Shown piece after piece: positions 3,145-59,538 of a stretch of DNA of 64,000 nt. Made by a program: the position numbers and the translations under genes. Every line of letters starts with the position of its first letter. Position 1 is the stretch's first letter. Source of the DNA: Thermoplasmata archaeon. Its GTDB lineage: Archaea > Thermoplasmatota > E2 > JACPAO01 > JAHFTW01. The notes below the pieces were generated by a model. The model had not been told where the DNA came from and made no database searches. It saw nothing but the letters and a program-made list of their open reading frames with translations. The DNA is taken from the NCBI GenBank assembly GCA_023269235.1, contig JAHFTW010000001.1:107548-171547 (forward strand), read 5' to 3'.

Positions 3145-3172
3145 CCCGTACGGCCCGCATCCCCCACCCTAG

Positions 3173-3202
3173 CGCGCCCACATCCTGGCCGAAGCCTGAG
3201 CG
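3173..3202 (+). repeat. Direct repeat, copy 2 (duplicate of the HicB-like gene end)
   Basis: This is a second copy of the HicB-like 3' terminus, including the stop codon, located just past the RelE-like stop with no gene body in front of it. Together with copy 1 it brackets the RelBE-like pair as a target-site duplication or recombination scar would. Confidence 0.85.
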
Positions 3203-3282
3203 GCGGTCGCCAAACCTTGTTTATCAACCCAACCCTGGACGGCCCCATCCCGCGCCCCAGGGCCTCTTCTGTTCGACCCTTA

Positions 3283-3431
3283 AACAGCGTCATTTATCTA
3301 GGTCCGGGCCGTCGGTCGGTCTTGAGTCCATGCACGGACGCCCGCAAGGGTGCCCTGCTGGCAGGGCCATCGCCATCGGTGATGGCTTAGCCCCGCACGC
3401 CGCGTGGACCAACACAAAGGAGATACCACAC
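3283..3431 (+). promoter_or_regulatory. Promoter and structured 5' leader of the surface-layer gene
   Basis: An A/T-rich element (catttatct, near 3288-3297) can serve as TATA box. The ~110-base leader that would follow contains three consecutive stems: gtcc/ggac at 3326-3339, a perfect 7-bp stem gccctgc/gcagggc at 3352-3367, and gccatc/gatggc around 3366-3386. A clear Shine-Dalgarno (aaaggaga, ~3416-3423) precedes the ATG at 3432. Long structured leaders that stabilise mRNA are known for abundant S-layer transcripts. The function here is inference. Confidence 0.5.
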
Positions 3432-5741
3432 ATGAACAACACTAGCAAGAACCTGCTGGCCGTTGCCCTGGTGCTCAGCTTCGTCGCGACGGCCATCCCG
3501 GCCGTCTCGGCTCAGTCCAGCGTCAACTTCGGCTCCCAGGTCAAGCTCGGTGACAATGACTTCCTGCCGCTCTCCGCGGCCGTTAGCATTGCCCTGGCTG
3601 CCTCGCAGCCTGCCGCCCTCGCGGCGGACACGATCAAGGAAGTCAACTTCGGCACCGGCGGCATCGCTGACAGCTGTTTCTACTACAGCCTCGGCGCGGT
3701 CGCTGCCATCGCCAAGTTTGACGTCCGTCTGACCCCCTGCCAGGGCAAGGCCGCTGGCACGCAGGTCACCGACTCCGACGTCGTCGAGAAGGCCGCCCCG
3801 ATTATCCTCGCGGTCCCCGCCGTCGCGGCCTCGGCCGTGAAGGTCGTTTACGCTGACATCAACGCGAACGGCCGCTACGACCTCGGCGACTCGGTCTACC
3901 TCGGCTCGAGCTCCGGCGCCCCCGCCGCGGGCTTCTCGGCCTCGACCGGCACGACGGTTTGGACCATCCGCCTCACGAGCTACGGCTCGATGGCGGCCGG
4001 CACCATCGTCAAGCCCGGCGACGCTGACCAGACCGCCTACGGCGCGGTTGCCCCCTTGCAGCCGGCCAGCGTCGCTTTGTTCGACGCTGACCTGAGCGGC
4101 GCTGTCCTCAACGCTGGCGACGCAGTCTACCTGTACCCCGCCGCGGCCGGTGTCGCCGCTGGCACCGCGGTCCCGGTCTACGCCGTCCGCCTCGCCAACG
4201 GCCCCATGGCCTTCGGCACCCAGGTCAAGCTCGGCGACTCCGACTTCAAGCCGACCGCAACGGGAGCCAACACGGCTCTCATCGCTTCGGCCGCAATCGC
4301 TGCCGGCGACTCCGTGAAGGAGACCAACTTCGGCACCGGAGGCATCGCTGACTCGTGCTTCTACTACCAGCCGGTCCCCGGCGCGCTCATCGCCAAGGGC
4401 GATGTCCGCCTGACCCCCTGCCAGGGCAAGGCCGCTGGCACGCAGGTCACCGACTCCGACGTCGTCGAGAAGGCAGCCGCGGCCATCACGGCCCGCGTCA
4501 CCGCCCTCGTCGTCGCCTTCGCCGACGTCAACGCCAACGGCCGCTACGACCAGGGAGACTCCGTCTACCTGACCAACGCCGCCGCCGGCTTCGGCGCCTC
4601 GACCGGCACGACCGCCTGGACCATCCGCTTGACGCCTTACGGCAGCTTCGCGGCCGGCACCATGGTCAAGCCGGGAGACGCCGACCAGACCGCCTACGGC
4701 GCGACCGCCATTGCGGTCCCCGGCGGCGCCACTGGCGTCACGTTCTTCGACGTTGACCTGAGCACCACCGCCAACTTGGGCGACGCCTACTACCTGGCCT
4801 TCGCGGCCACGGGCGCCGGCGTCCGCTTCCCGGTCTACGCCATCCGCCTTGCCAACGGCCCCGCGGCCTTCGGCACCCAGCTGAAGTTCGGCGACTCCGA
4901 CTTCCTGCCGACTGCCGCTGGCGTGGTCACCGCGCTGGCCGCTGCCAGCGTCCGCGAGACCAACTTCGGCACCGGCGGCATCGCCGACTCGTGCTTCTAC
5001 TACAGCGCCGCCGGTGCGGCCGCTGTCTCGAAGTTCGACGTTCGTCTGACCCCCTGCCAGGGCAAGGCCGCTGGCACGCAGGTCACGGACTCCGACGTTG
5101 TTGAGAAGGCCGCCGCCGTCGTCGCCACGGGCGCGCTGCGCGTTGCCTTCGCCGACATCAACGCTGATGGCAAGTACAACATGGGCGACTCGGTCTACCT
5201 GACCACGGGCGCCGCTGGCGTCCTGCCCGGCTCGACCGGAATCGCTGCGTTCTCCATCCGCTTGACGCCTTACGGCAGCTTCGCTGCCGGCACCGTCGTC
5301 AAGCCCGGCGACGCTGACCAGACGGCCTACGGAGCCATCGCCCCGACCCTGACCACCGCGGTCGGCGTGACCTTCTTCGACACCGACCTGAGCACCTTCG
5401 CCACCGGCCTCAACGCCGGCGACGTCGCGTACCTCTTCATCGGAGCCGCCCCCGCCGCTGGCACGCCCTTCGCGGTCTACAGCGTCCGCCTCGCTGGCAC
5501 CAGCCTGGTCGCCAACAACGGCGGCTCGACCGTGACCAACACCGGCAGCTCGTCCTCGAGCTCCAGCAGCTCGTCTTCGAGCAGCTCCACCGGCACCTCG
5601 TCTTCGAGCAGCTCCTCTTCGAGCAGCTCGTCCTCGAGCATGGCCAGCACCTCGAGTGGCCCCCAGACCCCCGGCTTCGAGCTGGTGGCCCTGGTCGCCG
5701 CCCTCGGCGCTGCCCTGGTCCTGGTCCGCCGCAAGCTCTAA
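3432..5741 (+). CDS. Surface-layer-like protein with three ~220-residue repeats, Ser tracts and PGF-CTERM anchor
   Basis: The protein has 769 residues. It has a signal peptide (about residues 1-28, ending 'AVSA'), then three homologous modules starting near residues 30, 259 and 476. Each module carries 'FGTGGIADSCFYY', 'DVRLTPCQGKAAGTQVTDSD', a dockerin/EF-hand-like loop 'D-x-N-A-N-G-x-Y-x-x-G-D', and 'AAGTxVKPGDADQTAYGA'. The two Cys per module probably form a disulfide, and the loops could bind calcium. Two poly-Ser tracts, likely O-glycosylated, lead to 'PGFELVALVAALGAALVLVRRKL'-type hydrophobic and Arg/Lys-ended tail. This matches the archaeal PGF-CTERM sorting signal processed by archaeosortase. 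The ATG is chosen for its Shine-Dalgarno and the signal peptide. It is likely a major cell-surface protein. Paralogs follow at 6779 and 7648. Confidence 0.85.
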   Translation: MNNTSKNLLAVALVLSFVATAIPAVSAQSSVNFGSQVKLGDNDFLPLSAAVSIALAASQPAALAADTIKEVNFGTGGIADSCFYYSLGAVAAIAKFDVRLTPCQGKAAGTQVTDSDVVEKAAPIILAVPAVAASAVKVVYADINANGRYDLGDSVYLGSSSGAPAAGFSASTGTTVWTIRLTSYGSMAAGTIVKPGDADQTAYGAVAPLQPASVALFDADLSGAVLNAGDAVYLYPAAAGVAAGTAVPVYAVRLANGPMAFGTQVKLGDSDFKPTATGANTALIASAAIAAGDSVKETNFGTGGIADSCFYYQPVPGALIAKGDVRLTPCQGKAAGTQVTDSDVVEKAAAAITARVTALVVAFADVNANGRYDQGDSVYLTNAAAGFGASTGTTAWTIRLTPYGSFAAGTMVKPGDADQTAYGATAIAVPGGATGVTFFDVDLSTTANLGDAYYLAFAATGAGVRFPVYAIRLANGPAAFGTQLKFGDSDFLPTAAGVVTALAAASVRETNFGTGGIADSCFYYSAAGAAAVSKFDVRLTPCQGKAAGTQVTDSDVVEKAAAVVATGALRVAFADINADGKYNMGDSVYLTTGAAGVLPGSTGIAAFSIRLTPYGSFAAGTVVKPGDADQTAYGAIAPTLTTAVGVTFFDTDLSTFATGLNAGDVAYLFIGAAPAAGTPFAVYSVRLAGTSLVANNGGSTVTNTGSSSSSSSSSSSSSSTGTSSSSSSSSSSSSSSMASTSSGPQTPGFELVALVAALGAALVLVRRKL

Positions 5742-6778: not shown

Positions 6779-7618
6779 GTGCGCATCTTCCTGGTGTTGG
6801 CCCTCCTTGCCGTGCCTGCCGCGACAGCCCAAGGCATCGCGACCGCCAGCCTTCCCGTGCAGGCCAACAACGACGACCTGGGGGCGGATCCGCCCTGTCT
6901 TGTGCTCGACATGGGCCAAACCGCGGCCGCGGGCGCACAGCCCTTTGACCTCCGCCTGACGCCCTGCCTCGGCCACGCGCCCGGCACGGAGATCCAGTCC
7001 TCGGACACCATCGAGCTGCAAGCCACCTATCCGCAGGCACATGGGGCGACGCCCGAGAGCGTGCTGTACGCTGACCTCGACGCGAACGGGCGCTACAGCC
7101 CAGGCGACTCCGTCTACCTCACGAGCCAAACGGGCCCCGGCCTGATGCCGACGACAGGGACCGCCGCTTGGACGGTCCGGCTCACATCCGTGGACGGCTT
7201 TCCGGCCGGTTCCCTGGTGCGTGCCGGGGACGCCGACTTAGCGGCCTTCGGACCGAGCGCGCAGCCGTGGGCCGCCGCCAGCCTGGGTTGGCTCGACGCC
7301 GACAACTCCGTCACCTACACGCCCGGCGACATCGCCTTCCTCATGCCCGTCGCCCCCGGGACCTCGGCCGGCACGCAGCCGCCCGTGGGCAGCATCCGCG
7401 TCTCGGGAGCGACCCCCGCCTCCACGTCCTCGCCAACCCAGGCGCCGACCTCGACGAGCCCCACCAGGGCCGTCCCCTCGCCCACCGCGATGCCTGCGGC
7501 CCCGTCCGGAACGACCTCGATGGACGCGTCCAAAGGGACGCCGGGGACTGGATTTCTCCTTGGGCTCCTCGTCCTCGGCGGGGTCGCTTCCCGGCGGAGC
7601 CGACTTCAGGCGGCTTAA
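6779..7618 (+). CDS. Secreted surface protein, single-module paralog of the 3432 gene
   Basis: The protein has 279 residues from GTG, beginning 'MRIFLVLALLAVPAATA', a clear signal peptide. One repeat module is present: 'FDLRLTPCLGHAPGTEIQSSDTIEL', the dockerin-like loop 'ADLDANGRYSPGDSVYL', 'AAWTVRLTSVDGFPAGSLVRAGDADLAAFG' and a second loop 'DADNSVTYTPGD'. These match the 3432 protein module in order. A Thr/Ser/Pro-rich linker leads to a C-terminal 'PGTGFLLGLLVLGGVASRRS' anchor, a PGF-CTERM variant. It is probably a minor envelope protein. The next gene's TATA box overlaps its last codons. Confidence 0.8.
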   Translation: MRIFLVLALLAVPAATAQGIATASLPVQANNDDLGADPPCLVLDMGQTAAAGAQPFDLRLTPCLGHAPGTEIQSSDTIELQATYPQAHGATPESVLYADLDANGRYSPGDSVYLTSQTGPGLMPTTGTAAWTVRLTSVDGFPAGSLVRAGDADLAAFGPSAQPWAAASLGWLDADNSVTYTPGDIAFLMPVAPGTSAGTQPPVGSIRVSGATPASTSSPTQAPTSTSPTRAVPSPTAMPAAPSGTTSMDASKGTPGTGFLLGLLVLGGVASRRSRLQAA

Positions 7619-7620
7619 AT
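7610..7620 (+). promoter_or_regulatory. TATA box of the 7648 gene
   Basis: The element cggcttaaata ends at 7621, overlapping the stop of the upstream gene and lying about 27-38 bases before the ATG at 7648. It fits the window-wide archaeal promoter spacing. Confidence 0.55.
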
Positions 7621-7647
7621 AGGTCCAGGGGGCTTGGAGAGACTGCC

Positions 7648-10600
7648 ATGCGTCGCATCGCGCTCGCCAGTCTTGCCGTCGTCCTCGTCCTCGCGACGGT
7701 CCCCTACCCGGCCTCGGCCGTCAGCTACGGCACCTTCGGGACCCTGGTCACCGCCAGCAGCACGGACTTCAAGCCGACCTACACCGATGCCGGCTTGACC
7801 CCCAAGGTGGTGGACGCGACGGGCGGGGGTGGCGACCTCTCGACGCACGCCCTTTTCCTGGACCTCAGCAACACTCCAACCCAGGTGGACGCGAACCAGG
7901 ACCTTGGGCTGGCCGGCACGGCGACGAAGGGCGCGCTTGCAACGACGACGACGTCGGCGACGGACCTTGGCGCGTTCCTCAGCAATGTTCGCTACCTGGA
8001 GTCGGACGGCATCATGGGCCTCACCACGGGCGACATCGTCGTGTGGTCCTTGGACGCGACGCTCAGCGCGAACGACATCATCCTCTCGTCCACCGTCTCG
8101 CCCGCGGAAGGCGGGGCCACCACGGGCGGTACCGTCATCACGGCGGGCTCCACCCTGTTGACCTCGGCCACCAACGCCAATGGAATCTACCCGGATTCCT
8201 TGACGCTCACCAGCGCCACGTTCTTCTTGAAATCCTTCGACGCGAACGGCAACGGCGCCCTCGGCACTGGTGACCGCCTGTTCCTTACCACAAACACAGG
8301 CAGCACGCCCCAGGTCGGCGACATCTACCTCGGGATCGGCACCGGCGGGACGCTCGGCACCGTCGTCACCTCGAGCGACACCAGCTACGTCCTCTCTCCG
8401 GGCGCCGTCACGGCCTACCTGGGCGCCACCTACACAGGAGCGGGTGCCTCCACGGACGGACTTTGGATTCATTTCCCCACGCCCGGAGGAACCAACGCCA
8501 ACCTCCTCACGAACGATATCATCCTCCGCTCCGCGCCGAGTACGTCGGGCGCGGCTGGCAGCGTGGTCACCACGCCGTCCACCGGCCAGGGGCTGGCGCT
8601 CGCGTCGCCGGCCACGACTTCGCTGGCGCCGCTAATCTTCTACCTGGACGTGGACGGTACGACCGGCTACTCCATCGGCGACCCAGTCTACTTGAACCGC
8701 CCGTCCGCGCTGGGCGGAGGCGCCGACGCTGGCTGCGCAACCGCACCGTGCCTGGATGCCCTTGACTACCGTCTGACCTCAATCACGGTTGGCTCCGCCA
8801 CCTATGCGGCCGGCACCGTCGTCGGCGCGAGCGACCAGGACCTGGCGCAATACGCTGCCAAGATTGGCAACGAAAACAAAGGTACGGGCGTCTGGGCGGT
8901 CCGGCTCTTCGACAACGACAACGGCGGGGGCTTGACGCTCAACTCCTTGACGAACGCGAAGTTCGCCGACATCGCAGGCGGTACCGCCAACACATGGGAC
9001 GTCGCGACCGAGCCGGTCTATGTCTCCGCGAACGCCGTGGTGACCAGCGGCGACAAACGTGTCTACACCGTGGCGGGCCAGCCGGCCCTCGGCACAGTCG
9101 TCTGCACAGGCACCCCGGATGCGGACTGCGGACGCACTTTTGTCACCAGTCCAGCCGCCGCGACCGCGCTCGCTGATTTCAAGGTGAGCGGGGGCGATGG
9201 CGTCTACGACTCCACGTCCGGTGAGGCGGTCTACTTCAGCAAGGATGCGCGCGTCAACGCCCTGGACCAGCGTTTGACGGTCCTTGGGACCCTTCTCACG
9301 GGGGCGGTCCTCTCAGCGGACGCGGACGCCATCCAGCGCCACGTCGAGACGAGCGACCAGCTTTTCGCCTCGTTCTGTCCCACCGGCACTTGCCAGCCGC
9401 GCCTCACGTGGAACGACATCCTCCTGGCGCCCACGCTCGGCACACGCTACGGCTTCGGCCCGACGGTAGGGTTGACGACGCTCACGACGACTGGATTCAT
9501 CCCGACCCTGAAGGCCGTCACGTTGCAGCTCATCCGGTACGACCGCGACCCTTCGGGTGGCGACACGACCGACGGGTTCTACGCGAGCAACGATGGAACG
9601 TTGGGCACCAACGACCTGCGTCTCGTCGGTTTCTCCGGGGGCGCGGGCCCCGGCCTCTTCGTCACCGGCTCCAACACTGAGGAGGTCTCGGCCGGCTCGA
9701 GCGCGACCTCCATCGCGGCCAACGTCGCCTCTCTAATCAAATACCGCGAGCTCGACGGCCTCACAGGCTTCACTGCGGGCGACGTCGCCTACATTGACCT
9801 CACGACCACGGGCAGCGTCATCAGCGGCGCCTCGAACGGTGTCCTGGACCTCAACGACATCCGTCTCAGCAACTACCCAAGCGGCGGCGCCGGCGGCAAC
9901 GTCGTCGCGGCCGGTGGTTCCGAGACCACGAACAGCCAGACTGGGCAGGCCCTTACCGGCACCTTCGTCCTGGCCTATTTCGACGCCAACGGCGACGGGG
10001 TGTTCAGCGCCGACGATGTCCTCTACGCCGTCCCGACCGCGATTGGCTCGACAGCGCAGGTCCCGCTCAACGCCATCTACCTCAGTGGTGCGGGGGGCAC
10101 CATCGGTGGGGCCGCCCCGGTCTCCTCCACGCCTGTTGTCACGACGCCGAACACGGCCACCTCGACCGGCACCGCGTCCTCCAGCGCCTCCGCTTCAAGC
10201 AGCAGCTCCTCCATCAGTCCCCCCACAACCGCCTCAGACGGGACGCTCGGCGGGAACCCGGACGTCGTGAAGGCGAACCAGGGAATCAAGGACTCGTTGC
10301 AGGTGGATTTGTCGGGCGGCGTCGCCAAGCTCACGTGGGCCCAGCAGGACGCCATCACGGGCTACCAAGTGTGGAGCCACAACTCGCCCTACGTCCTGCT
10401 CGCGACGCTCAACGACCCGTCGAAGACGAGCTACACGGACGCCGCGGGGACGACCTCGACCGGGTACCTGGTCACGTCGTTCCACGGCTCCGACGGCAAC
10501 CTCACGGCGGCGCAAGTGAACGCCGGCCAGATCCCCGGCCTCAAGGCCAACACCATCCCGGCGGGCGCGGTGGGGACCGGGGCCGTCTCCGCGACCTCGA

Positions 10601-10689
10601 CGAAGGCGCCCATCCCGGCGCCCGGCATCGTCGTTGCGCTCGGCGCCGTCGCGGTCGCCCTCGTCCTGGCGCGTCGCCGCCTCCTGTAG
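7648..10689 (+). CDS. Large secreted surface protein with dockerin-like loops, Fn3-like domain and C-terminal anchor
   Basis: The protein has 1013 residues. A signal peptide (about 1-27) precedes a long series of variable modules with recurring Ca-loop-like D-x-[DN]-x-[NG]-G/T-x-x-x-x-G-D segments (for example 'DVDGTTGYSIGDPVYL', 'DANGDGVFSADDVLYA') and 'S-x-x-D-I-[IL]-L' strands. They appear related to the 3432 and 6779 proteins but more diverged. Near residue 830 there is a Thr/Ser tract. A fibronectin-III-like domain follows ('AKLTWAQQDAITGYQVWSH…TSTGYLVTSF'), then 'APGIVVALGAVAVALVLARRRLL', a PGF-CTERM-like anchor. A Cys pair appears in 'GCATAPC' and others. It is probably a cell-wall or adhesin-type glycoprotein and a natural substrate for the adjacent O-mannosyltransferase. 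Confidence 0.8.
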   Translation: MRRIALASLAVVLVLATVPYPASAVSYGTFGTLVTASSTDFKPTYTDAGLTPKVVDATGGGGDLSTHALFLDLSNTPTQVDANQDLGLAGTATKGALATTTTSATDLGAFLSNVRYLESDGIMGLTTGDIVVWSLDATLSANDIILSSTVSPAEGGATTGGTVITAGSTLLTSATNANGIYPDSLTLTSATFFLKSFDANGNGALGTGDRLFLTTNTGSTPQVGDIYLGIGTGGTLGTVVTSSDTSYVLSPGAVTAYLGATYTGAGASTDGLWIHFPTPGGTNANLLTNDIILRSAPSTSGAAGSVVTTPSTGQGLALASPATTSLAPLIFYLDVDGTTGYSIGDPVYLNRPSALGGGADAGCATAPCLDALDYRLTSITVGSATYAAGTVVGASDQDLAQYAAKIGNENKGTGVWAVRLFDNDNGGGLTLNSLTNAKFADIAGGTANTWDVATEPVYVSANAVVTSGDKRVYTVAGQPALGTVVCTGTPDADCGRTFVTSPAAATALADFKVSGGDGVYDSTSGEAVYFSKDARVNALDQRLTVLGTLLTGAVLSADADAIQRHVETSDQLFASFCPTGTCQPRLTWNDILLAPTLGTRYGFGPTVGLTTLTTTGFIPTLKAVTLQLIRYDRDPSGGDTTDGFYASNDGTLGTNDLRLVGFSGGAGPGLFVTGSNTEEVSAGSSATSIAANVASLIKYRELDGLTGFTAGDVAYIDLTTTGSVISGASNGVLDLNDIRLSNYPSGGAGGNVVAAGGSETTNSQTGQALTGTFVLAYFDANGDGVFSADDVLYAVPTAIGSTAQVPLNAIYLSGAGGTIGGAAPVSSTPVVTTPNTATSTGTASSSASASSSSSSISPPTTASDGTLGGNPDVVKANQGIKDSLQVDLSGGVAKLTWAQQDAITGYQVWSHNSPYVLLATLNDPSKTSYTDAAGTTSTGYLVTSFHGSDGNLTAAQVNAGQIPGLKANTIPAGAVGTGAVSATSTKAPIPAPGIVVALGAVAVALVLARRRLL

Positions 10690-10696
10690 GTCGGTC

Positions 10697-10720
10697 TGTT
10701 CCTCCCTCTTTTTCTACCTC
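10697..10720 (+). terminator. T-rich terminator after the surface-protein gene
   Basis: A pyrimidine stretch with a five-T run lies directly after the stop at 10689 and before the GTG start at 10741. It fits archaeal intrinsic termination. Confidence 0.45.
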
Positions 10721-10740
10721 CATCCGGTGGCTCGGCCATC

Positions 10741-13332
10741 GTGCAGCTGTCGGTCGTCCTTCCCACCTACAATGAGGCGGGCAACATTGCCCGCATGGTG
10801 GCGGCGCTGCGCGACGAGCTGAAGGCCCTTGACCATGAGGTCCTGGTCATCGACGACAACTCGTTGGACGGGACGGCGGAGCTGGCCCGCAAGGCGGGCG
10901 CTCGCGTCATCGTGCGCACCGCGGAGCGCGGGCTCGCGACGGCGGTCGTGCGCGGCATCGCGGAGGCCAAAGGGACGTACGTCGCCGTGATGGACGCCGA
11001 CTTCCAGCACCCGGTCGCCACGGTCCACCGAATGGCGGAGCGCGCCGTCGCGCGGGACGCCGACCTCGTGGTGGGCAGCCGCTACGTCGAGGGTGGCACG
11101 GAGGGCGACTTCAGCTTCGTCCGCAAGCAGATCAGCCGCGGCGCGTCGTTCCTCGCCAACGTCGGCCTGCCCCCCGTGCGCAAGTTCCACCTCACCGACC
11201 CGATGAGCGGCCTGTTCCTGGTCCGCCGCGACCGCGTGGACGCCGCGCAGTTGCGCCCGTCCGGCTACAAGGTTCTCCTCGAGGTCATCGCGCGGGCCCG
11301 CCTGGAGCGCGTCGAGGAGGTCGGCTACGTGTTCGGCACGCGCGCCGCCGGCGACTCCAAGCTGGGCGCGAAGACCATCGTCCAGTATGTCATGCATCTT
11401 GCGGCGCTCGCCGCGCAGGACCGCGAGAACCGGCGCATGGTGCGCTTCGCCCTCGTGGGCGCCTCCGGCGTCCTCGTCAACTACATCCTGCTGTTCCTGC
11501 TGTTCCAGCTCCTGGGGTTGGAGTACCATCTCTCCCTCGCGGCGGCGCTCGAGGCGAGCGTCATCACGAACTTCCTCCTCAACGACCGGTACACGTTCCG
11601 CGACCACCACGAGGACGGCTGGTGGACGCGGCTCGGGCTGTTTCACCTGGTGAGCTTCTTCGGCCTCGCGTGCAGCTTCGCGACGCAGAGCGTGCTCGTG
11701 GACTTCCTCGGCCTCAACAAATACCTCGTCCTCCCCCTCGGCGTCCTCGCCGGCTTCATCCCGAACTGGATGGGAAACCAGCGTTTCACCTACGGCGGCA
11801 AGGCGCGGCCCAAGACAAGCCGCTGGCTCCCGTACGCGGTCCTCGTCGTCGCCGCATCGGGCCTCTACCTGGGCGGCCTTGGCGAGATCCATGACGTGTA
11901 CTTCGACGAGCACTACTACGTCTCCGTCGCGCACCAGCTCGACAACGGCATCCTCGACGACCCGTGCTGGGCCAACGACGCCACGTTGTCGGAGCGGCCG
12001 CTCAACTACGAGCACCCGCCCCTCGCCAAGCTCATCCTGTGGGCGAGCGTGCACGCGTACGACACGTACCCGGCCGTCTTCGAGGGATGCCGCGACCCGG
12101 ACAACACCAACACGGTCTCCCCGCCTTGCCAGATCCTCAACAACGACGGCGGCGTCATCGCGACGGGCACCAGCCACAAGGCGTGCTACGACACGTTCAC
12201 GCAGGGCCTCCGGGAGCAGGGCAACCCGTACGCCTGGCGCGGCCCCGCGGCCCTGTTCGGCGTCATCACGGTCCTCTTCATCGCGCTCACCGCGCGCCGG
12301 CTGTTTCAGAGCGACGTCGCGGGCACGCTCGCGGGGGCCTTCGTCCTCCTCGACACCCTGATGGTGACGTCGAGCCGCATCGCGCTCCTGGACATCTTCG
12401 CCGTCGGCTTCGCGGTCGTCGCGGCCTGGTGCGCGACCTACCCTTCCCGCAAGGGCATCCTCGGCGCCGCGCTCTTCCTCGGCCTCGGGTTCTCCAGCAA
12501 GTACTACGTCCTCTTCGCCGGCCCGCCGGTCCTGCTCCTCGCGTTCTGGGCGCAGTGGCGCGCCGGCCGCCTCACGCGCCGCCGCTTCGACCTGGCGCTC
12601 TTCGCCCTCCCTACCATCCCGCTCGGCGTCTGGGTCGCGACCTACGCGCCGTGGTGGGCCCTGTGGGTCAAGGAGCACGGGCTCGCGTGGGCCGTCGAGC
12701 ATTGGGGTCGCGTGCAGGTCGAGGCCATCAAGTGGATGGCCGCCGGCAAGCAGGACCACCAGTACATCTCGCAGCCCATCGAGTGGATTCCCATCGTGCG
12801 GCCCATCTTCTACATCGGCTCGGGACAGATCCTCGCGGACGGGGACTGGAGGAGCTACATCTACGGCATCGGCAACCCCGCGGTCTGGTGGCTCGGCTCC
12901 GTCGTCGCCGTGGCCGCGCTTGCCTGGTTCATCTTCGGCTACGCGGTCGCGCTGGGTCGGCGCGCCCAAGGTCCGTTCCGTTACCTCGCCGGCCTGCCGC
13001 GTTGGCGCCAGGCGACCCTCGTCGGCGGCCTGTTCCCGCTCTTGAGCTACGGGGCGTTCTTCGTCCTCACCCGCTCGACCTTCATCTTCTACATGACCCT
13101 CGTCGCGCCGTTCTTGGCCCTGGCGCTTGGGGGTGCGGTGGCGCGGCTGTGGGAGCACCCTGCGCGCTGGGCGCGCACGACCGCCATCGCGGTGTGCGGC
13201 CTCGCCGTGGCCTGCTTCCTGTGGTTCCTCCCGCTGGCGCTCTACATCCCCATCCCGCGCGACTACTTCCATTTCCTGTTCAAGCTCGTGCCGTGGATGC
13301 ACGAGTGCGGCAAGGACTTCCTCTGCGCCTAG
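10741..13332 (+). CDS. Fusion: polyprenyl-phosphate mannose synthase + GtrA + PMT-type O-mannosyltransferase
   Basis: The protein has 863 residues from GTG. Residues 1-230 form a GT-A glycosyltransferase family 2 domain of the DPM1 type ('VVLPTYNEAGNI', 'VIDDNSLDGT', metal-binding 'DADFQHP', 'LTDPMSGLFLV'). Residues ~233-355 are a four-helix GtrA domain ('FALVGASGVLVNYILLFLLF', 'NFLLNDRYTF', 'GNQRFTY'). Residues ~365-863 are a multi-TM GT39/PMT domain with the acidic catalytic pair in 'YFDEHYYV' (~residue 387) and the family signature 'YEHPPLAK' (~426). DPM1 makes lipid-linked mannose, GtrA is associated with moving or anchoring the lipid donor, and PMT transfers the sugar to Ser/Thr of exported proteins. 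One polypeptide therefore appears to cover donor synthesis through transfer. It sits right after Ser/Thr-rich surface proteins. No MIR domain is seen. Confidence 0.88.
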   Translation: MQLSVVLPTYNEAGNIARMVAALRDELKALDHEVLVIDDNSLDGTAELARKAGARVIVRTAERGLATAVVRGIAEAKGTYVAVMDADFQHPVATVHRMAERAVARDADLVVGSRYVEGGTEGDFSFVRKQISRGASFLANVGLPPVRKFHLTDPMSGLFLVRRDRVDAAQLRPSGYKVLLEVIARARLERVEEVGYVFGTRAAGDSKLGAKTIVQYVMHLAALAAQDRENRRMVRFALVGASGVLVNYILLFLLFQLLGLEYHLSLAAALEASVITNFLLNDRYTFRDHHEDGWWTRLGLFHLVSFFGLACSFATQSVLVDFLGLNKYLVLPLGVLAGFIPNWMGNQRFTYGGKARPKTSRWLPYAVLVVAASGLYLGGLGEIHDVYFDEHYYVSVAHQLDNGILDDPCWANDATLSERPLNYEHPPLAKLILWASVHAYDTYPAVFEGCRDPDNTNTVSPPCQILNNDGGVIATGTSHKACYDTFTQGLREQGNPYAWRGPAALFGVITVLFIALTARRLFQSDVAGTLAGAFVLLDTLMVTSSRIALLDIFAVGFAVVAAWCATYPSRKGILGAALFLGLGFSSKYYVLFAGPPVLLLAFWAQWRAGRLTRRRFDLALFALPTIPLGVWVATYAPWWALWVKEHGLAWAVEHWGRVQVEAIKWMAAGKQDHQYISQPIEWIPIVRPIFYIGSGQILADGDWRSYIYGIGNPAVWWLGSVVAVAALAWFIFGYAVALGRRAQGPFRYLAGLPRWRQATLVGGLFPLLSYGAFFVLTRSTFIFYMTLVAPFLALALGGAVARLWEHPARWARTTAIAVCGLAVACFLWFLPLALYIPIPRDYFHFLFKLVPWMHECGKDFLCA

Positions 13333-13383: not shown

Positions 13384-14427
13384 TCAGGCCGAGGCCTGCT
13401 TGAGGTGCGCCTTGAGGGCCTTGATCTCGCGGATCTCGGCGGGGTCCTCGCCCTTGAGCGCGGCGACGTACACGGACGTGTAGTCGAGGAACTGGAGCAT
13501 GCGCGCCTGCTCGACGACGTGGTCGCCGAAGGAATCAATGGGGTTCGCTGTGAGGTTGGTCCAGCGCACGCCCCAGCCACGGTAGCGCTCCTCCATGTAG
13601 GAGAGGCGGCGGCGCAGCTGCGGGTTCTGGTTGCCGTGGCTCAGCGCCAGGACGGTGAAGTGGCGGCGGTTCTCGACGTCGCCGCCCCAGCCGGTGAGGT
13701 CGTTATGGTTCGACTCGGGGACCAGGTCCACGTCGGCGATCTTCTTCGCGTTCTCGTTGAGCATGCCGCGGAAGTGCAGGCCGACGCCGTAGAACGCAGG
13801 GGTCGCGTAGATCTGCGGGATGGGGCGGTGCAGGGTGCGGGCGAGCTGCTTGGCCTCGTTCTTCGCCTCGGGGACCTGGGGGCCGCAGGTGGCGTCCACC
13901 TCGCGCACGGCCTCCACCGCCTCGGCGACAGGGACCTTGTCCTTCAGGAGGCCGGAGCCCTCGAGGAACCCAAGGACGCTGAACCAGGAATAGCCGAAGG
14001 CGGCGCGTGGCTGGTAGCCGGGTGGCTGCGGGATGGTGCGGGCGGCGAGGGTGGCCAGCGTGCCGCCGGTGCTGAAGCCGGTCACCTCGACGCCGCGCTC
14101 GCGGGCGGACTTGACGACGGCGAGGGTCTCCTCGGTCTCGCCGGAGTAGCTGATGGCGAGGCAGTGCCAGCCCTTCTTGACGTGGTGCGGGAACTGGTAG
14201 TGCTTGACGACGCTGAACGGCAGCTCCAGGCTGCGCGTGGCGGCGTCCTTGACCAGGTTGGCGCACATGCCGGAGAAGCCCATGCCGGCGAACAGCAGGC
14301 CGTCCGCCTTGACGTGCGCCGGCGCCCCCTTGCGGCCCGCCGTGAAGCCGTCCTGGAGCAGGGCGGACTTCGACTGGATGGCTGGCAGGAACCCGCTGGG
14401 GTCGTTGAGGGTGGGCAAGTCGGGCAT
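13384..14427 (-). CDS. Bifunctional phosphoglucose/phosphomannose isomerase (SIS domains)
   Basis: The protein has 347 residues. The tandem SIS fold shows 'ADGLLFAGMGFSGMCANLV' and 'CLAISYSGETEETLAVV' (phosphate-binding S-Y-S-G-x-T-E-E), then the C-terminal half with 'ESNHNDLTGW', the E-x-N-H-N signature containing the catalytic His of the archaeal/bacterial PGI/PMI family. Length and motif order match that family (about 300-350 residues). It interconverts fructose-6-phosphate with glucose- or mannose-6-phosphate and so could feed mannose to GDP-Man and the neighbouring O-mannosylation enzyme. A TATA box (ccctataaaa on the plus strand) lies ~24-33 bases upstream, suggesting a leaderless mRNA. 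Confidence 0.85.
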   Translation of the reverse strand: MPDLPTLNDPSGFLPAIQSKSALLQDGFTAGRKGAPAHVKADGLLFAGMGFSGMCANLVKDAATRSLELPFSVVKHYQFPHHVKKGWHCLAISYSGETEETLAVVKSARERGVEVTGFSTGGTLATLAARTIPQPPGYQPRAAFGYSWFSVLGFLEGSGLLKDKVPVAEAVEAVREVDATCGPQVPEAKNEAKQLARTLHRPIPQIYATPAFYGVGLHFRGMLNENAKKIADVDLVPESNHNDLTGWGGDVENRRHFTVLALSHGNQNPQLRRRLSYMEERYRGWGVRWTNLTANPIDSFGDHVVEQARMLQFLDYTSVYVAALKGEDPAEIREIKALKAHLKQASA

Positions 14428-15241: not shown

Positions 15242-15547
15242 ATGGACGGTGGGGGTGGCACGGCCGTGGCACTCTTCGAGGAAGGCCCCCTCCTGGTCAT
15301 CGTCATCGTCGTCCTGCTCCTGTTCGGAGCGGCCGCCATCCCGAAGCTGGCCCGCAGCCTGGGCCGCGCCAAAGGAGAGTTCCAGCGGGCGAAGGGCGAA
15401 TTCGAAGGCGAAGTGGCCAAGTCGGCCACCGCGCCGGTCGCGGCCAGCGAGGAGCAGGTCGTCAGCACCGCCCGCGGCCTCGGCATCGACACCGCCGGCA
15501 AGTCCGTGGACGAGCTGAAGCGGCTCATCCAGCAGAAGATGGCCTAG
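15242..15547 (+). CDS. tatA: Twin-arginine translocase subunit TatA/B
   Basis: The protein has 101 residues. A short acidic/Gly N-terminus precedes the single TM helix (~15-33, 'PLLVIVIVVLLLFGAAA') and the family hinge 'F-G-x-x-x-I-P-K-L-A-R-S-L-G-R-A', which begins the amphipathic helix. TatA oligomers form the membrane-weakening pore through which folded proteins with RR signals pass. The last ~35 residues ('QVVSTARGLGIDTAGKSVDELKRLIQQKM') look like a small SAP/helical unit not typical of TatA. The tatC gene is on the opposite strand and the two stop codons share the same CTAG. Confidence 0.85.
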   Translation: MDGGGGTAVALFEEGPLLVIVIVVLLLFGAAAIPKLARSLGRAKGEFQRAKGEFEGEVAKSATAPVAASEEQVVSTARGLGIDTAGKSVDELKRLIQQKMA

Positions 15548-16425
15548 GCGTCCTGGGCCTCGGCCGCCCGGGGCCTTCGTGATGCCCACAGCGCCCCCAC
15601 CAAGTAGAGCAGGAACACCGGCCCGGCGAGGAGCAACTGGCTGACGATGGTCGGGTCCGGGGTGAGGACCATGCCGGCGACGAGGGCGGCGACGAGCGCG
15701 TGCTTCCACTGGCGCAAGAACGTGCGGCCCTCGACGAGTCCCGTGCGCGCGAGCACGACCAAGACGACTGGCGTCTCGAAGGCAAGGCCGAACCCGACGA
15801 GGAACGCGAGCGTGAAACTGGAGAACTCATGCACGTCGAGGAGGGGGGACGCGCCCAACGCGTCGCTGAAGCCGTACAATGCCGCCAGCGTCACCGGGAG
15901 GACGAACAGGTAGGCGAACGCGGCCCCCGTGACGAAGAGGAGCGTCGTCGGGACGACCGCCTGGAGAAGCAGTCGGGATTCGCGAGGACGCAGGGCCGGG
16001 CCGAAAAAGCGCCCAAGCTGGACCAGCATCACCGGCAGGGCCACGGCGAACCCCAGGGATAGGCTCCAGGCGAACTGCGCGGTGAATCCGTCGAGCGGGC
16101 TCGTCACCACCAGGTGGACGTTCGCGGGGACCAGGTGCGCCGCCGCCATCCGGAACAGTTGCGCAGAGAGGTTGTCGTACACGTCGAGGGTGGGGATGGG
16201 CCACGGTCCGTTCCAGTCAACGCGGACGCTCAGCGCCACCAATGTGCCCGCGACGAAGGCCGCGATGCACAGGAGCAGTCGGCGTCGTAGTTCCTCGATG
16301 TGCTCGAGGATGGAGAGAGACCCGTCCGCGCGTCGGCGGCCGGCCGCCAAGGCGCCGAGGAGGACGACGAGCATGAAGGCCACGACCCCCGCGGCGACGA
16401 CTTGCAGGAGCCCTCCTTCCGCCAT
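15544..16425 (-). CDS. tatC: Twin-arginine translocase subunit TatC
   Basis: The protein has 293 residues from the ATG at 16425. The TatC signature 'SILEHIEELRRRLLLCIAAF' (H-x-x-E-L-R-R-R-L) is at about residue 37-56, followed by six hydrophobic helices and the 'F-x-x-x-F-x-L-x-F-G-x-x-F-E-x-P' element near residues 200-220. TatC binds the twin-Arg signal peptide and nucleates the translocon. An additional N-terminal hydrophobic segment (residues ~5-27) precedes the usual cytoplasmic N-tail, making a predicted seven-helix protein. A longer upstream extension in frame has no TatC character and overlaps mvk. It is convergent with tatA. Confidence 0.88.
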   Translation of the reverse strand: MAEGGLLQVVAAGVVAFMLVVLLGALAAGRRRADGSLSILEHIEELRRRLLLCIAAFVAGTLVALSVRVDWNGPWPIPTLDVYDNLSAQLFRMAAAHLVPANVHLVVTSPLDGFTAQFAWSLSLGFAVALPVMLVQLGRFFGPALRPRESRLLLQAVVPTTLLFVTGAAFAYLFVLPVTLAALYGFSDALGASPLLDVHEFSSFTLAFLVGFGLAFETPVVLVVLARTGLVEGRTFLRQWKHALVAALVAGMVLTPDPTIVSQLLLAGPVFLLYLVGALWASRRPRAAEAQDA

Positions 16426-16531
16426 GGCCAGCGCCACGGGCTCGCCGGCTTGAAGGTGGCGGCGACGGGCGCGGCCGGGGGCAGCAAGGACTCCGGCACC
16501 TTGAAGCGCCCGGCGCGGGTGCGAGACCGTC

Positions 16532-17533
16532 TTGAGCGAACTGGAAAGCCTCCGCGCCGTGGCGTCCGCGCCGGGCAAGGTCATCCTCTTCGGGGAGCAC
16601 GCCGTCGTGTACGGCCACCCCGCCATCGCCGCCGCCACCGACCAGCGCACCGTCGTCGAGGTGGACTGCTGCGGCGACCGCACCACGGTGAACGGCTTCC
16701 GCATCCACGACCGCTTCCACTCCTACCTCCTCACCAGCGTGGAACGGGTCTGGAAGCGGCCCGACGCCGTGCGCATCCAGACCGAGGGCGGCGTGCCCAG
16801 CGCTTCGGGGACCGGTTCCAGCGCGGCCCTGACCGTCGCCTGCGTCGCCGCCTTGCGTCGCCTGCAGGGGCACGAGGACATCCCCGGCCTCGCCCAGGCC
16901 GCCTTCGAGGTCGAGCGCGCCACCCAGGGCGGCGGCTCCCCCACGGACACCTCCACCTCCACGGCGGGCGGCGGCATCGCCATCAGCAGCAGCCTCGACC
17001 CGCCCAAGGTCGGCGAGAGGCTCTGGGATGTCGGCTGGCACGTCCCCGGCGAGGAGCGCAGCTGGACCGTCGAGCGCATCGACATGCCGCCCCTCACCGT
17101 CGTCCTGGGCAACTCCGGCGTCAAGGGCCGCACGGACGAGCAGGTCGCCAAGGTCGCCAACGCCGCGAAGAAGAACGCTGTCGTGCGCGATTCCCTCGCC
17201 GAGATCGGTGCCCTCACCCGCGAGGCCGTCCCCGCCCTCCGCAAGAAGGACTGGGCCGCGGTCGGCGCCCTCATGGACAAGGCCCACAGCCGCCTCCACA
17301 CCCTCGGCGTCAACCACCCCGCCGTCGAGACGCTCATCCAGGCCGTCCGCGCCGCCCCCGGCACGCTCGGCTGCAAGATCACCGGCGCCGGCGGTGGCGG
17401 TAGCATGGTCGTCCTCACCGACCGACCCGCCGTGGCCGCGAAGGCCATCGAGGCCGCGGGCGGCACCGCCTACGGCGTCACGCTTGGCTCACCCGGCGCC
17501 CGCCTCGAGAAGATGGCGGCGGTCGAGCCGTGA
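16532..17533 (+). CDS. mvk: Mevalonate kinase
   Basis: The protein has 333 residues from TTG; no ATG or GTG lies close by. This GHMP kinase has 'APGKVILFGEHAVVYGHPAIA' at the N-terminus, the ATP-binding Gly/Ser loop 'PSASGTGSSAAL' (~89-100), the catalytic-base region 'GGSPTDTSTSTAGG' and the C-terminal 'KITGAGGGGSMVVL' motif. It phosphorylates mevalonate to 5-phosphomevalonate. Its stop overlaps the IPK start (GTGA), tying it to the archaeal isoprenoid route. That route reaches IPP through isopentenyl phosphate, not mevalonate diphosphate. The decarboxylase or dehydratase steps are not in this window. Confidence 0.9.
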   Translation: MSELESLRAVASAPGKVILFGEHAVVYGHPAIAAATDQRTVVEVDCCGDRTTVNGFRIHDRFHSYLLTSVERVWKRPDAVRIQTEGGVPSASGTGSSAALTVACVAALRRLQGHEDIPGLAQAAFEVERATQGGGSPTDTSTSTAGGGIAISSSLDPPKVGERLWDVGWHVPGEERSWTVERIDMPPLTVVLGNSGVKGRTDEQVAKVANAAKKNAVVRDSLAEIGALTREAVPALRKKDWAAVGALMDKAHSRLHTLGVNHPAVETLIQAVRAAPGTLGCKITGAGGGGSMVVLTDRPAVAAKAIEAAGGTAYGVTLGSPGARLEKMAAVEP

Positions 17534-18276
17534 GCGCGGCGGGTCCCCTCCTCGTCAAGCTCGGCGGGTCGCTTCTCACAGACAAGGCGCGCGAGCAGGC
17601 GCTCCGTCCGGCACGGACGCAACGGCTGATGCGCGAGCTGGCCACGGCCATCGGGCCCGTCGTCCTCGTCCACGGAGCGGGCTCCTTCGGCCATCCACAG
17701 GTCAAGCGCCACAAGGCGGCGCTCAGGCGTGCCGGTCCCAAGCAGGAGTTGGCCGTCGCGGAGGTCCTCGAGAGCCTACGGCACCTGAGCAAGAAGGTGC
17801 TCGCCGCCGCCCGCAAGGCCGGCATCGAGCCCGCCCCAATCGTCCTTGATGGCCGTGGCCTCGACGCCGCCGCCCTGCGCGAGGTGCGCGCCGCCTTGGC
17901 CGTGGACCGGGTCCCCGTCCTGCACGGCACGCTGGTGCGCGACGGCGCGGCGTGGCGGGTCCTGGGCGGCGACGAGATCATGGCCGGGCTCGCCGCGGCG
18001 CTCAAGCCGAGCCGGATCGTCTGGGCCACCGACGTCCAAGGCATCTACGACCGCGACCCGCGCGCAGGCTCCGCCAACCTTCTGCCAGAGGCCCGCGCCG
18101 TCCCCGTCTCCCGGGCTGGCCGCGGTGCCGACGTCACCGGTCGCATGGGGGGAAAGCTGGAGTGGTCGGGCCGCGCTGCCAAGGTGGCTCCCACCTGGAT
18201 TGTCGGCGGCCACGTCGCAGGGCGCCTCGAGAAGGCGCTCCAAGGCCGCCCCAAGGGCACCCGGGTCCTCCCGTAG
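17530..18276 (+). CDS. ipk: Isopentenyl phosphate kinase
   Basis: The protein has 248 residues of the amino-acid-kinase fold. 'LLVKLGGSLLTDK' binds ATP phosphates, 'VLVHGAGSFGH' contains the catalytic His that separates IPK from other members of the fold, and 'VPVLHGTLVRDG', 'VLGGDEIMAGLA' and 'WATDVQGIYDRDP' complete the family pattern. It phosphorylates isopentenyl phosphate to IPP, the last step of the archaeal mevalonate pathway. It starts at GTG inside the mvk stop and is co-translated with it. Ends 53 bases before the next gene. Confidence 0.93.
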   Translation: MSAAGPLLVKLGGSLLTDKAREQALRPARTQRLMRELATAIGPVVLVHGAGSFGHPQVKRHKAALRRAGPKQELAVAEVLESLRHLSKKVLAAARKAGIEPAPIVLDGRGLDAAALREVRAALAVDRVPVLHGTLVRDGAAWRVLGGDEIMAGLAAALKPSRIVWATDVQGIYDRDPRAGSANLLPEARAVPVSRAGRGADVTGRMGGKLEWSGRAAKVAPTWIVGGHVAGRLEKALQGRPKGTRVLP

Positions 18277-18329
18277 CGGTTGCCAAACGCTTCAAGAACC
18301 GGACCCTTCCCGGTGCCTGAGGCCCTTCA

Positions 18330-18614
18330 ATGCCCATCCCCGGCGGCACCCCCCACCACAACAAGATCTACGACTTCCTGAAGGCGGAGGGCTACACCAC
18401 GCCGGACAAGCTCGTCGACGCCGACAAGATTGCCCTCGGCACCAAGCTCGGCAAGGGCATCGTCGCCAACCTGCTCCTCGACCTCGAGAAGCGGGGCTTC
18501 GCCAAGCGCGTCGCCCGCGGCAAGGCCGCCGGCTACTACATCACGCAGATCGTCGCCGACGCCCCCAAGCAGGCCGCCGGCGAAACGAGCTTCACAGCTG
18601 ACGACATCTTCTAG
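18330..18614 (+). CDS. Small predicted winged-helix-like protein in the isoprenoid cluster
   Basis: The protein has 94 residues and starts at ATG. The core 'HHNKIYDFLKAEGYTTPDKLVDADKIALGTKLGKGIVANLLLDLEKRGFAKRVARGKAAGYYI' (landmarks: I-Y-D-F-L-K-A-E-G, then G-I-V-A-N-L-L-L-D-L-E-K-R-G-F, then Y-Y-I) has the helix-turn-helix plus wing layout of small wHTH proteins. The C-terminal 20 residues are acidic and probably flexible. I cannot assign a family. Its place between ipk and fni suggests either a regulator of the cluster or an unrelated small DNA/RNA-binding protein. Confidence 0.6.
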   Translation: MPIPGGTPHHNKIYDFLKAEGYTTPDKLVDADKIALGTKLGKGIVANLLLDLEKRGFAKRVARGKAAGYYITQIVADAPKQAAGETSFTADDIF

Positions 18615-18649
18615 GCCGGCAGAACGCCTCCTGAGCGAGGCCCACCCCT

Positions 18650-18680
18650 TCTTCCCTTTTCCCACCCCTGTTTTTATGGA
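18650..18680 (+). promoter_or_regulatory. T-rich terminator followed by TATA-like box of the fni-idsA operon
   Basis: After the stop at 18614 a pyrimidine tract with a T4 run fits a terminator. The immediately following gtttttatgg (18669-18678) lies about 24-33 bases before the GTG at 18702 and fits a TATA box, so a new transcription unit begins here. Confidence 0.5.
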
Positions 18681-18701
18681 CTCCTTCCCTGCCAAACCGC
18701 A

Positions 18702-19787
18702 GTGGCATCCTCCAAGCGAACGAAGCCAACCGCCCCCGTCGCCCACGACGCCGACGCCAAGGCCCTGGAGACGGAGCGCCGCAAGGAGGAGCACCTGCGC
18801 ATCCCCCTCGAAAAGGACGTCCAGTCCATCCCAAGCCCGTGGGATGCCATCCGGCTCCGCCACAATCCTATCCCTGAGATGGACAAGACGGACATCGACC
18901 TGCGCACCACGTTCCTGGGCCGAAAGCTGATGGCTCCCATCCAGATCACCGGCATGACCGGGGGCGCCAAGAAGGCCAAGGAGTTCAACGCCCGCCTGGC
19001 CGCCGCCGCGGCCGAGCACGGCGTCGCCATGGGCGTCGGCTCGCAACGCGCTGCCCTGGAGAACCCCAAACTCGCCGAGACGTACTCGGTCATCCTTGAC
19101 CACGACGTGCCGCTGCGCATTGCGAACCTGGGACTACCACAAATTATCCTCTGGGGCGACGAGGCTCCCGCCAAGGCGAAGGAGGCGGTCGCCATGGTCG
19201 AGGCGCACGCCCTCGCCATCCACCTCAACAATCTCCAGGAGGCCGTCCAGCCTGAAGGCGACACCGTCGCCAAGGGCGGCCTCGCCGCCATCGCCAAAGT
19301 CGCCAAGGCGCTCAAGGTCCCCGTCGTCGCCAAGGAGACGGGTGCCGGCATCGATGGCCGCGCCGCAACCGACCTGGTCCGCGCCGGGGTCAAGGCCATT
19401 GACGTCGGCGGCCTCGGCGGCACCAGCTTCAGCGCCGTCGAGCACTGGCGCGCCCTCGACCAGGGCGACGCCGTCAAGGCGCGCCTCGGCAAGACGTTCT
19501 GGGACTGGGGCACCCCGACTCCGGAGTGCGTCGCCTCTGTGCGGGCCACCCTGCCGGACATTCCGTTGGTTGCCACGGGCGGCTTGCGCACCGGCCTGGA
19601 CGCCGGCCGCGCCTTCGCCCTCGGCGCCGACCTTGCGGGCTTCGCCGGGCACCTCTTCCGCGCCGCCGCCGAGGGCCCCGACGCCGCCACGCGGGAGTTG
19701 GCGGTCCTTCAAGAAGAGTTGAAGACCACCCTGTACCTCGTGGGAGCCACTCGCCCGTCGGATTTGACGGAGGACCATCTCGCATGA
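18702..19787 (+). CDS. fni: Isopentenyl-diphosphate delta-isomerase, type II (FMN)
   Basis: The protein has 361 residues from GTG. The TIM-barrel landmarks of type II isomerases are present: 'RKEEHLRI' near the N-terminus, 'IQITGMTGGA', 'AMGVGSQRAALE', 'ANLGLPQI', 'HLNNLQEAVQPEGD' with the catalytic Gln and Glu, 'VPVVAKETGAGI', 'IDVGGLGGTSF', and 'VATGGLRTGLDAGRAFALGADLAGFA' for FMN phosphate binding. It converts IPP to DMAPP using reduced FMN. The first ~25 residues are a Lys/Ala-rich extension. Its stop overlaps the GGPP synthase start (ATGA). Confidence 0.94.
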   Translation: MASSKRTKPTAPVAHDADAKALETERRKEEHLRIPLEKDVQSIPSPWDAIRLRHNPIPEMDKTDIDLRTTFLGRKLMAPIQITGMTGGAKKAKEFNARLAAAAAEHGVAMGVGSQRAALENPKLAETYSVILDHDVPLRIANLGLPQIILWGDEAPAKAKEAVAMVEAHALAIHLNNLQEAVQPEGDTVAKGGLAAIAKVAKALKVPVVAKETGAGIDGRAATDLVRAGVKAIDVGGLGGTSFSAVEHWRALDQGDAVKARLGKTFWDWGTPTPECVASVRATLPDIPLVATGGLRTGLDAGRAFALGADLAGFAGHLFRAAAEGPDAATRELAVLQEELKTTLYLVGATRPSDLTEDHLA

Positions 19788-20784: not shown

Positions 20785-21780
20785 TTACAGGGCGTTCCCG
20801 ACCTGGGACGCCGGGTAGCCGGCGGGGACGGGCTTCGTCCAGATGCGTTGCGCTGTGGCGGAGTCGCGCACGAACTCACCGTCGCCGACGACGCAGTCCT
20901 TGAGGTGCACGCCGGTGTCCACGGTGACCCCGTCGCCGAGGACGCAGCCTTCGACGTGGGCGGAGGCGCGGACCGTGCAGCCTTTGCCCGCGACGGAGCC
21001 GGTGAAGGTGGCGTGGTCGCCGAGCCGGAACTCTGGCCCGGCCTTGAAGTGCGCATCGAGGGTGTGGCAGGCGTCAAGCAGTCGCTTCGGGTCGCCGACG
21101 TCGATCCAGGGGCCGTCGATGCCGAAGCCGTGGAAGCCCTGCGGGATGAGTTGCGGGAAGATCTCCTTCTCCATGCTCACCATCTTGCCGGCCGGGATGA
21201 GGGAGCGGACGCGGCGCTCCAGGAGGTAGGCGCCGGCATTGATGAGGCGGCTCGGGGCAAGGGCGGGGTCCTTGGGCTTCTCGACGAAACCTTGGATCGT
21301 GGTCGTGCCTGCGGGCGTGGTGGCGCCGGGCTGGATGACACCGAAGTTCACGACGTCGGCGAGCGGGACCTCCTTGAGGGCGATGGTGCCGACGGCGCGG
21401 GCGGCGCGGTGGGCCTTCAGCATCGCGCCCAGGTCCATGCGGCTCACGATGTCGGCGTTGAGGACGAAGAAGGAATCGGAGGTGAGGAACTTCTCGCAGT
21501 TCTTGACGGCGCCCGCGGTGCCGAGCGGTTCGTCCTCCTTGACGACGATGAAGGTGCGCCGGTCGCGTGCCGCCTTGCCGGGGCGGTTCTGCAGGTACGC
21601 GCCGAGCGCCTGCGCCTTCCAGTTGACGGCGACGATGACGCGGCTGACCTCGGGCGGCAGGCGATCAAGAACCCACTCGATCATCGGGCGACCGGCCACG
21701 GGCAGGAGCGGTTTCGGGCGCGTGTAGGTGAGCGGACGCAGGCGCGTCCCGTACCCGCCGGCGAGGATGATGGCGTCCAT
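20785..21780 (-). CDS. Sugar-phosphate nucleotidyltransferase with left-handed beta-helix tail
   Basis: The protein has 331 residues from the ATG giving 'MDAIILAGGYGTRLRPLTYTRPKPLLPVAGRPMI'. This is the textbook nucleotidyltransferase N-terminus with the G-G-x-G-T-R-L-R-P nucleotide loop and the P-K-P Lys. 'FFVLNADIVSRMDL' holds the metal Asp, and 'GFVEKPKDP' and 'NAGAYLLERRV' are family motifs. After ~235 residues hexapeptide-like repeats ('GDHATFTGSVAGKGCTVRASAHVEGCVLGDGVTV') form a short beta helix. Mannose-1-phosphate guanylyltransferase or glucose-1-phosphate nucleotidyltransferase are both possible. The nearby mannosyl-transfer genes make GDP-mannose attractive. It is divergent from gltX. 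Confidence 0.85.
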   Translation of the reverse strand: MDAIILAGGYGTRLRPLTYTRPKPLLPVAGRPMIEWVLDRLPPEVSRVIVAVNWKAQALGAYLQNRPGKAARDRRTFIVVKEDEPLGTAGAVKNCEKFLTSDSFFVLNADIVSRMDLGAMLKAHRAARAVGTIALKEVPLADVVNFGVIQPGATTPAGTTTIQGFVEKPKDPALAPSRLINAGAYLLERRVRSLIPAGKMVSMEKEIFPQLIPQGFHGFGIDGPWIDVGDPKRLLDACHTLDAHFKAGPEFRLGDHATFTGSVAGKGCTVRASAHVEGCVLGDGVTVDTGVHLKDCVVGDGEFVRDSATAQRIWTKPVPAGYPASQVGNAL

Positions 21781-21802
21781 GGCGAGGCGGCCAAGGGCGG
21801 CC

Positions 21803-21812
21803 ACTTTTAAGG
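21803..21812 (+). promoter_or_regulatory. TATA box of gltX
   Basis: The element acttttaagg lies 10-19 bases before the GTG at 21822, at the short end of the usual spacing. The true start could be a few codons downstream, but the archaeal GluRS N-terminus is variable. Confidence 0.45.
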
Positions 21813-59431: not shown

Positions 59432-59538
59432 CCCGCAGTCTCTCGACACGGCGCCGGCGCATAGCGTTTTTGGGATGCACGCGGCGGGCGCGGGCCGGCG
59501 CGTCGGCGTCCGGCGGGGCCTCTTCGCGTGGAACTCTC

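Follow-up and report, generated by a model that had tools for sequence, protein, structure and literature searches.

A complete type III DPMS and a PMT-family half in a single reading frame of a Thermoplasmata archaeon

The stretch of DNA analysed here (the window) comprises 64,000 nucleotides of contig JAHFTW010000001.1 from a Thermoplasmata archaeon, and contains a long open frame in which a lipid-mannose synthase, a GtrA-type membrane domain and a protein O-mannosyltransferase (PMT) appear to follow one another. The locus raises the question of whether these parts form one natural protein, and whether such a protein could both make a lipid-linked sugar and transfer it to proteins. According to a 2016 survey (PMC4973528), protein O-mannosylation had not yet been described in archaea. 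The features of the fused gene and of its neighbours are shown in Table 1.

Table 1. Features of the fused gene and neighbouring genes, with positions in the window
Feature	Residues	Position	Strand	Basis
Surface protein, 803 aa in called frame		3330..5741	+	Poly-Ser stalk, PGF-CTERM-like tail; candidate acceptor
Surface protein, 279 aa		6779..7618	+	Ser/Thr/Pro-rich stalk before C-terminal hydrophobic segment; candidate acceptor
Surface protein, 1013 aa		7648..10689	+	Signal peptide-like start, Ser-rich stretch, C-terminal hydrophobic anchor; candidate acceptor
Fused gene, DPMS (GT2 + GtrA)-PMT		10741..13332	+	Open frame, Pfam, 5mlz alignment; GTG start
GT2 catalytic domain	4-164	10750..11232	+	PF00535, 1.1e-30; PDB 5mlz alignment; DADFQH at 85-90
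GtrA/DPMS four-helix transmembrane domain	235-350	11443..11790	+	PF04138, 4.5e-26
Linker	351-362	11791..11826	+	Short (~12 residues); no stop or good internal start
PMT/GT39-family domain	363-863	11827..13329	+	PF02366, PF16192; split PMT homologues; Pmt4-like fold
PMT catalytic Asp-Glu pair, first outer loop	389-390	11905..11910	+	Role from MtPMT D74 (PMC12331936)
YEHPPLAK motif	423-430	12007..12030	+	Motif scan, alignment
R-x-x-F motif	778-781	13072..13083	+	Equivalent of yeast Pmt1 R649-F652 and MtPMT R441-Y444
Phosphoglucose/phosphomannose isomerase-like, convergent neighbour		13384..14427	-	PF10432, 2.6e-31; NCBIfam matches under curated cut-offs
Mevalonate kinase, isopentenyl phosphate kinase, type 2 IPP isomerase, prenyl diphosphate synthase		16532-20776	+	In a row
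Mannose-1-phosphate guanylyltransferase-like nucleotidyltransferase		20785..21804	-	PF00483, 2.7e-40; NF052502, 1.5e-57, under cut-off

Continuity of the fused frame

The gene is a single open frame of 863 codons without internal stops, which begins with a GTG codon preceded 11 nt upstream by a Shine-Dalgarno-like GGTG and ends with a stop codon at 13330-13332. Pfam places a GT2 synthase, a GtrA domain and a GT-C transferase all within it, and the intact motifs that the original prediction had described as continuous in one 863-residue frame, including the D-E pair (D389-E390) and YEHPPLAK, were found there. GC content at third codon positions is 0.92-0.98 over the entire frame, including the domain junctions. 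An antisense ORF of 862 aa (10714-13302, reverse strand) lies opposite the fused gene and is read as a shadow frame of high-GC DNA.

The source assembly consists of 26 contigs and is 93 % complete. Two adjacent genes joined by an assembly or sequencing error would be in keeping with the occurrence of the fusion in one genome only and with the split homologues of both sister families, but this explanation fits poorly with the behaviour of the frame. When 180 single-base deletions and insertions were simulated over residues 345-375, only 2 deletions brought a stop close to where the first gene would naturally finish (residues 350 and 364), and with the remaining changes the frame read through to residue 384 or 539. 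The sole in-frame start codon between residues 321 and 385 is an ATG at residue 344, within the last GtrA helix, and no Shine-Dalgarno-like sequence was found upstream of it; this codon could in principle yield a separate PMT. Because so few indels restore two genes and the only start lies in the last GtrA helix, an error hiding two normal genes is unlikely. In addition, the fusion sits in a contig of 376,728 bases, and a chimera would have to join by chance genes that are already adjacent in relatives. Frameshift and chimera were rejected on the indel simulation, the uniform codon composition and the adjacency of the two genes in relatives, and the probability left to an error is very small. 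Split homologues and signs of a frameshift or chimera had both been named beforehand as evidence against the prediction; all close homologues found are indeed split, whereas the indel simulation and the uniform third-position GC speak against the other. The frame is confirmed as a real fusion of DPMS and PMT.

Domains and conserved residues of the two halves

Both N-terminal Pfam matches, PF00535 and PF04138, lie above their curated cut-offs, and residues 1-351 align with the solved DPMS of Pyrococcus furiosus over its whole length (5mlz, E=3e-74). Thirteen substrate residues, which bind the donor, the metal and the lipid phosphate or belong to the acceptor loop, were taken from the assignments in the P. 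furiosus structure paper (PMC5526996), and 12 are identical in the window protein (E12, D39, D85, D87, Q89, H90, R114, R128, S132, K177, R201 and K207 in its own numbering), among them Asp39, which contacts the guanine; the sole mismatch is P. furiosus F177, which is replaced by Tyr. As judged from this alignment, residues 1-351 represent a complete type III DPMS (GT2 plus four-helix transmembrane domain), so the DPMS-GtrA part alone is an already known arrangement, as the original prediction had noted for archaea. The combination is common in the phylum, where most full-length matches among 390 genomes fall in frames of about 350-460 aa, and a search of the window genome itself gave neither a second PF04138 domain elsewhere nor another match to the full DPMS and GtrA part. 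The N-terminal half is predicted to use GDP-mannose and dolichyl phosphate.

The C-terminal half matches PF02366 (PMT; residues 494-608, 1.7e-12, 47.9 bits against a cut-off of 22.7) and PF16192 (PMT_4TMC; residues 655-841, 1.5e-13, 51.1 bits against a cut-off of 32.4). No MIR domain was found in the window protein by Pfam; bacterial PMTs likewise are not known to carry one. Equivalences of PMT residues were drawn from an alignment with a Nocardia PMT and from data on the Mycobacterium tuberculosis PMT (MtPMT), in which D74 belongs to an essential D-E pair (PMC12331936). The position of MtPMT Y444 is occupied by Phe, as in yeast Pmt1, and D551 is, by alignment only, the likely equivalent of MtPMT D176. 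No solved structure was matched by phmmer with the PMT half alone, but a profile built from three archaeal PMT sequences matched yeast Pmt4 (E=1.9e-13). In structure models with a mean pLDDT of 63, which indicates moderate confidence, Pmt4 (9i5k) ranked first among GT-C proteins, above ArnT and OST (oligosaccharyltransferase), in both models. The assignment of the C-terminal half to the PMT family, with a predicted fold nearest to that of Pmt4, is well supported, and this half is predicted to transfer mannose to Ser/Thr of proteins.

The genome also encodes an STT3 homologue and further PMT-like proteins, so lipid-P-sugars may have other users, and the protein could instead consist of a lipid-P-hexose synthase and a GT-C transferase, other than a PMT, that serves another acceptor such as an N-glycan, a lipid or a polysaccharide. 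The GT2-GtrA-PMT_2 fusions of Rhizobium, which may act on other acceptors, point in the same direction. This alternative is considered unlikely in view of the PMT_4TMC domain, which Pfam does not find in the Rhizobium protein, the PMT motifs and the ranking of Pmt4 as the best GT-C fold match. The sugar is predicted to be mannose, with another hexose possible, as sequence alone does not fix it.

Relatives, neighbouring genes and proposed mechanism

Among the 390 genomes of the phylum, only 4 carry the PF16192 domain, of which three belong to the order of the window genome, and the fused frame occurs only in the window genome. In one sister family (JACPAO010000148.1) the DPMS gene ends at 9488 and the PMT gene starts at 9481 in another frame (locus coordinates), an overlap of 8 bp (ATGCCTGA), and the split PMT carries a long N-terminal extension that is absent from the window fusion. 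In the other (JAHWKR010000061.1) the two genes are separate, divergent neighbours. The proteins of the sister families are 47-48 % (DPMS) and 32-35 % (PMT) identical to the corresponding halves of the window protein. The sole other genome of the window family, which is 79 % complete, has neither gene. As DPMS and PMT genes are adjacent in both sister families, three families link the same gene pair, and the fusion appears to have arisen when neighbouring genes were joined; from these comparisons, the simplest history would be that the adjacent genes merged into one in the window lineage. Phyla outside Thermoplasmatota were sampled via plasmids and one scan of 84,980 species genomes, in which the only PMT relatives were the two sister loci and one unfused Bdellovibrionales GT-C protein. 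Two other long frames of the phylum (in genomes G335 and G358) were considered as fusions and rejected, their extra length lying upstream of the DPMS part and not representing a PMT.

Ser/Thr-rich surface proteins beside the fused gene had been noted in the original prediction. Three such proteins, each anchored, are encoded upstream, and their position and composition suggest that they are good acceptor candidates. Ser/Thr residues reach 24 of 25 in the 803-aa protein, 13 of 25 in the 279-aa protein and 17 of 25 in the 1013-aa protein, whose ORF was listed as 7168-10689 with a likely true start at 7648 and whose gene ends 51 bp upstream of the fused gene on the same strand. The tail of the 803-aa protein scores 20.3 bits against TIGR04126, under the cut-off of 24.5, and a PGF-type archaeosortase is encoded in the genome. 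Repeats of the form DxNxxGxYxxGDSVYL, which look dockerin-like by eye, are shared by the surface proteins, and the repeat units of the 803-aa and 279-aa proteins are 38-45 % identical. In the sister locus JAHWKR010000061.1, the PMT gene lies roughly 3 kb from a gene for a PKD-domain protein that has a TETPTESPTETPTESP stalk and is anchored at its C-terminus. MtPMT reportedly favours proline-rich targets (PMC12331936).

Downstream, the isomerase-like gene may possibly supply mannose-6-phosphate and the nucleotidyltransferase gene GDP-mannose, while the isoprenoid genes, besides a possible supply of lipid carrier, serve membrane lipids too; the genes for the supply of sugar and lipid and for possible clients all lie within about 18 kb. 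The isoprenoid row also holds a 94-aa protein without a Pfam match, before the type 2 IPP isomerase. At 15242-16704 a TatA-like gene (forward strand) runs up to the 3' end of TatC, which is convergent with it (reverse strand). As called, the TatC frame includes a long N-terminal stretch overlapping the start of the mevalonate kinase gene on the opposite strand. Farther away, an Endonuclease IV-like TIM barrel that is extended at its C-terminus by about 200 residues and weakly matches the GvpO N-terminal model is encoded at 38449-39807 (reverse strand), and a 381-aa protein encoded at 59528-60673 (forward strand) matches Volactin (PF25216, 1.9e-119), an actin family described from haloarchaea, a lineage different from that of the window.

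We consider it probable that two genes that were neighbours and functionally coupled have fused naturally, giving a bifunctional membrane enzyme that O-mannosylates proteins at the surface of the archaeal cell. That donor synthesis and acceptor transfer are joined in one protein, as originally proposed, is backed by sequence, fold and comparative evidence; the activities, the sugar and the acceptors are inferred. In such an enzyme the cytoplasmic GT2 domain would use GDP-mannose to mannosylate dolichyl phosphate. The four-helix GtrA/DPMS domain would act as an anchor and may help to flip or hand over the lipid-linked mannose, and on the outer side of the membrane the PMT domain would attach the mannose to Ser/Thr of exported proteins, for example the stalked surface proteins encoded upstream. 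Because the GtrA domain has four helices, the linker is predicted to stay on the cytoplasmic side, and D389-E390 would lie outside, after PMT helix 1; the cytosolic N-terminus reported for MtPMT (PMC12331936) agrees with this topology. Flipping or direct channelling through the GtrA domain is speculative, and a self-contained system, in which lipid-mannose would pass straight through GtrA to the fused PMT with the upstream stalked proteins as clients, is put forward only tentatively.

Both activities may also be real and the halves independent, the fusion being neutral and free of channelling; the PMT might then be released through internal initiation or by proteolysis. Separate proteins suffice in the sister families, and the P. 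furiosus DPMS still synthesizes its product when the equivalent transmembrane domain is deleted (PMC5526996), which makes independence a reasonable possibility, though one we do not favour. The linker of about 12 residues, the retention of catalytic residues in both halves and the absence from the fusion of the long N-terminal extension seen in the split PMT of JACPAO010000148.1 weigh against it, although coupling is not thereby proven.

The bifunctional enzyme would bear on the open question of the route that lipid-P-sugars take through the membrane and of the role played by GtrA/DPMS transmembrane domains; according to PMC11127046, a flippase role of the exporters treated there still lacks direct demonstration. 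With the inside and the outside enzyme in one chain, the whole reaction could be rebuilt in vesicles from a single protein, and the fusion could thus help to test how the sugar crosses. The window locus and the sister loci are concrete candidates for archaeal protein O-mannosylation.

Comparison with known systems

No published description of a DPMS-GtrA-PMT fusion was found in the open-access literature, a result that does not prove its absence. The search for the same domain order in other genomes that had been proposed gave the fused frame in one of the 390 genomes of the phylum and analogues on Rhizobium plasmids. These analogues, and the known three-component system that the parts form, weaken the claim that the arrangement is new in kind. 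Some of these plasmids encode GT2-GtrA-PMT_2 fusions of 881-914 aa, and others carry the parts as separate neighbouring genes. ACO34A_29245 (CP021375.1, 881 aa, locus 2911-5556), annotated as hypothetical, resembles the window protein in domain order and size and in having a neighbouring-gene state elsewhere, but it is bacterial, and its transferase is PMT_2 (PF13231) without PMT_4TMC (one protein scanned). The Rhizobium fusions represent a parallel case of fusion in bacteria. The novelty of the window protein lies in how known parts are combined, a combination seen in one genome.

With the type III DPMS of P. furiosus (5MLZ, PMC5526996) the window protein shares the GT2 domain, the interface helices, the four transmembrane helices and the substrate residues listed above, but the P. 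furiosus chain stops after the transmembrane domain, whereas the window chain continues into the PMT. With GT39 PMTs (yeast Pmt1/2/4 and M. tuberculosis PMT) it shares PF02366 and PF16192, the D-E pair in the first outer loop, the HPP motif, the R-x-x-F/Y motif and a Pmt4-like fold; it differs in being archaeal, in sitting behind a DPMS in one chain and in having acceptors that are only candidates. In three-component glycosylation systems (GtrA/GtrB/Gtr-type and CsbB/GtcA/YfhO; PMC8035078, PMC7389260, PMC11127046) the same three roles, those of a GT2 polyprenyl-P-sugar synthase, a GtrA-family membrane protein and a GT-C transferase, are filled by separate proteins acting on polysaccharides, whereas the window protein is one chain with a protein-type transferase and, by analogy, would functionally be a one-chain version of a three-component transmembrane glycosylation system.
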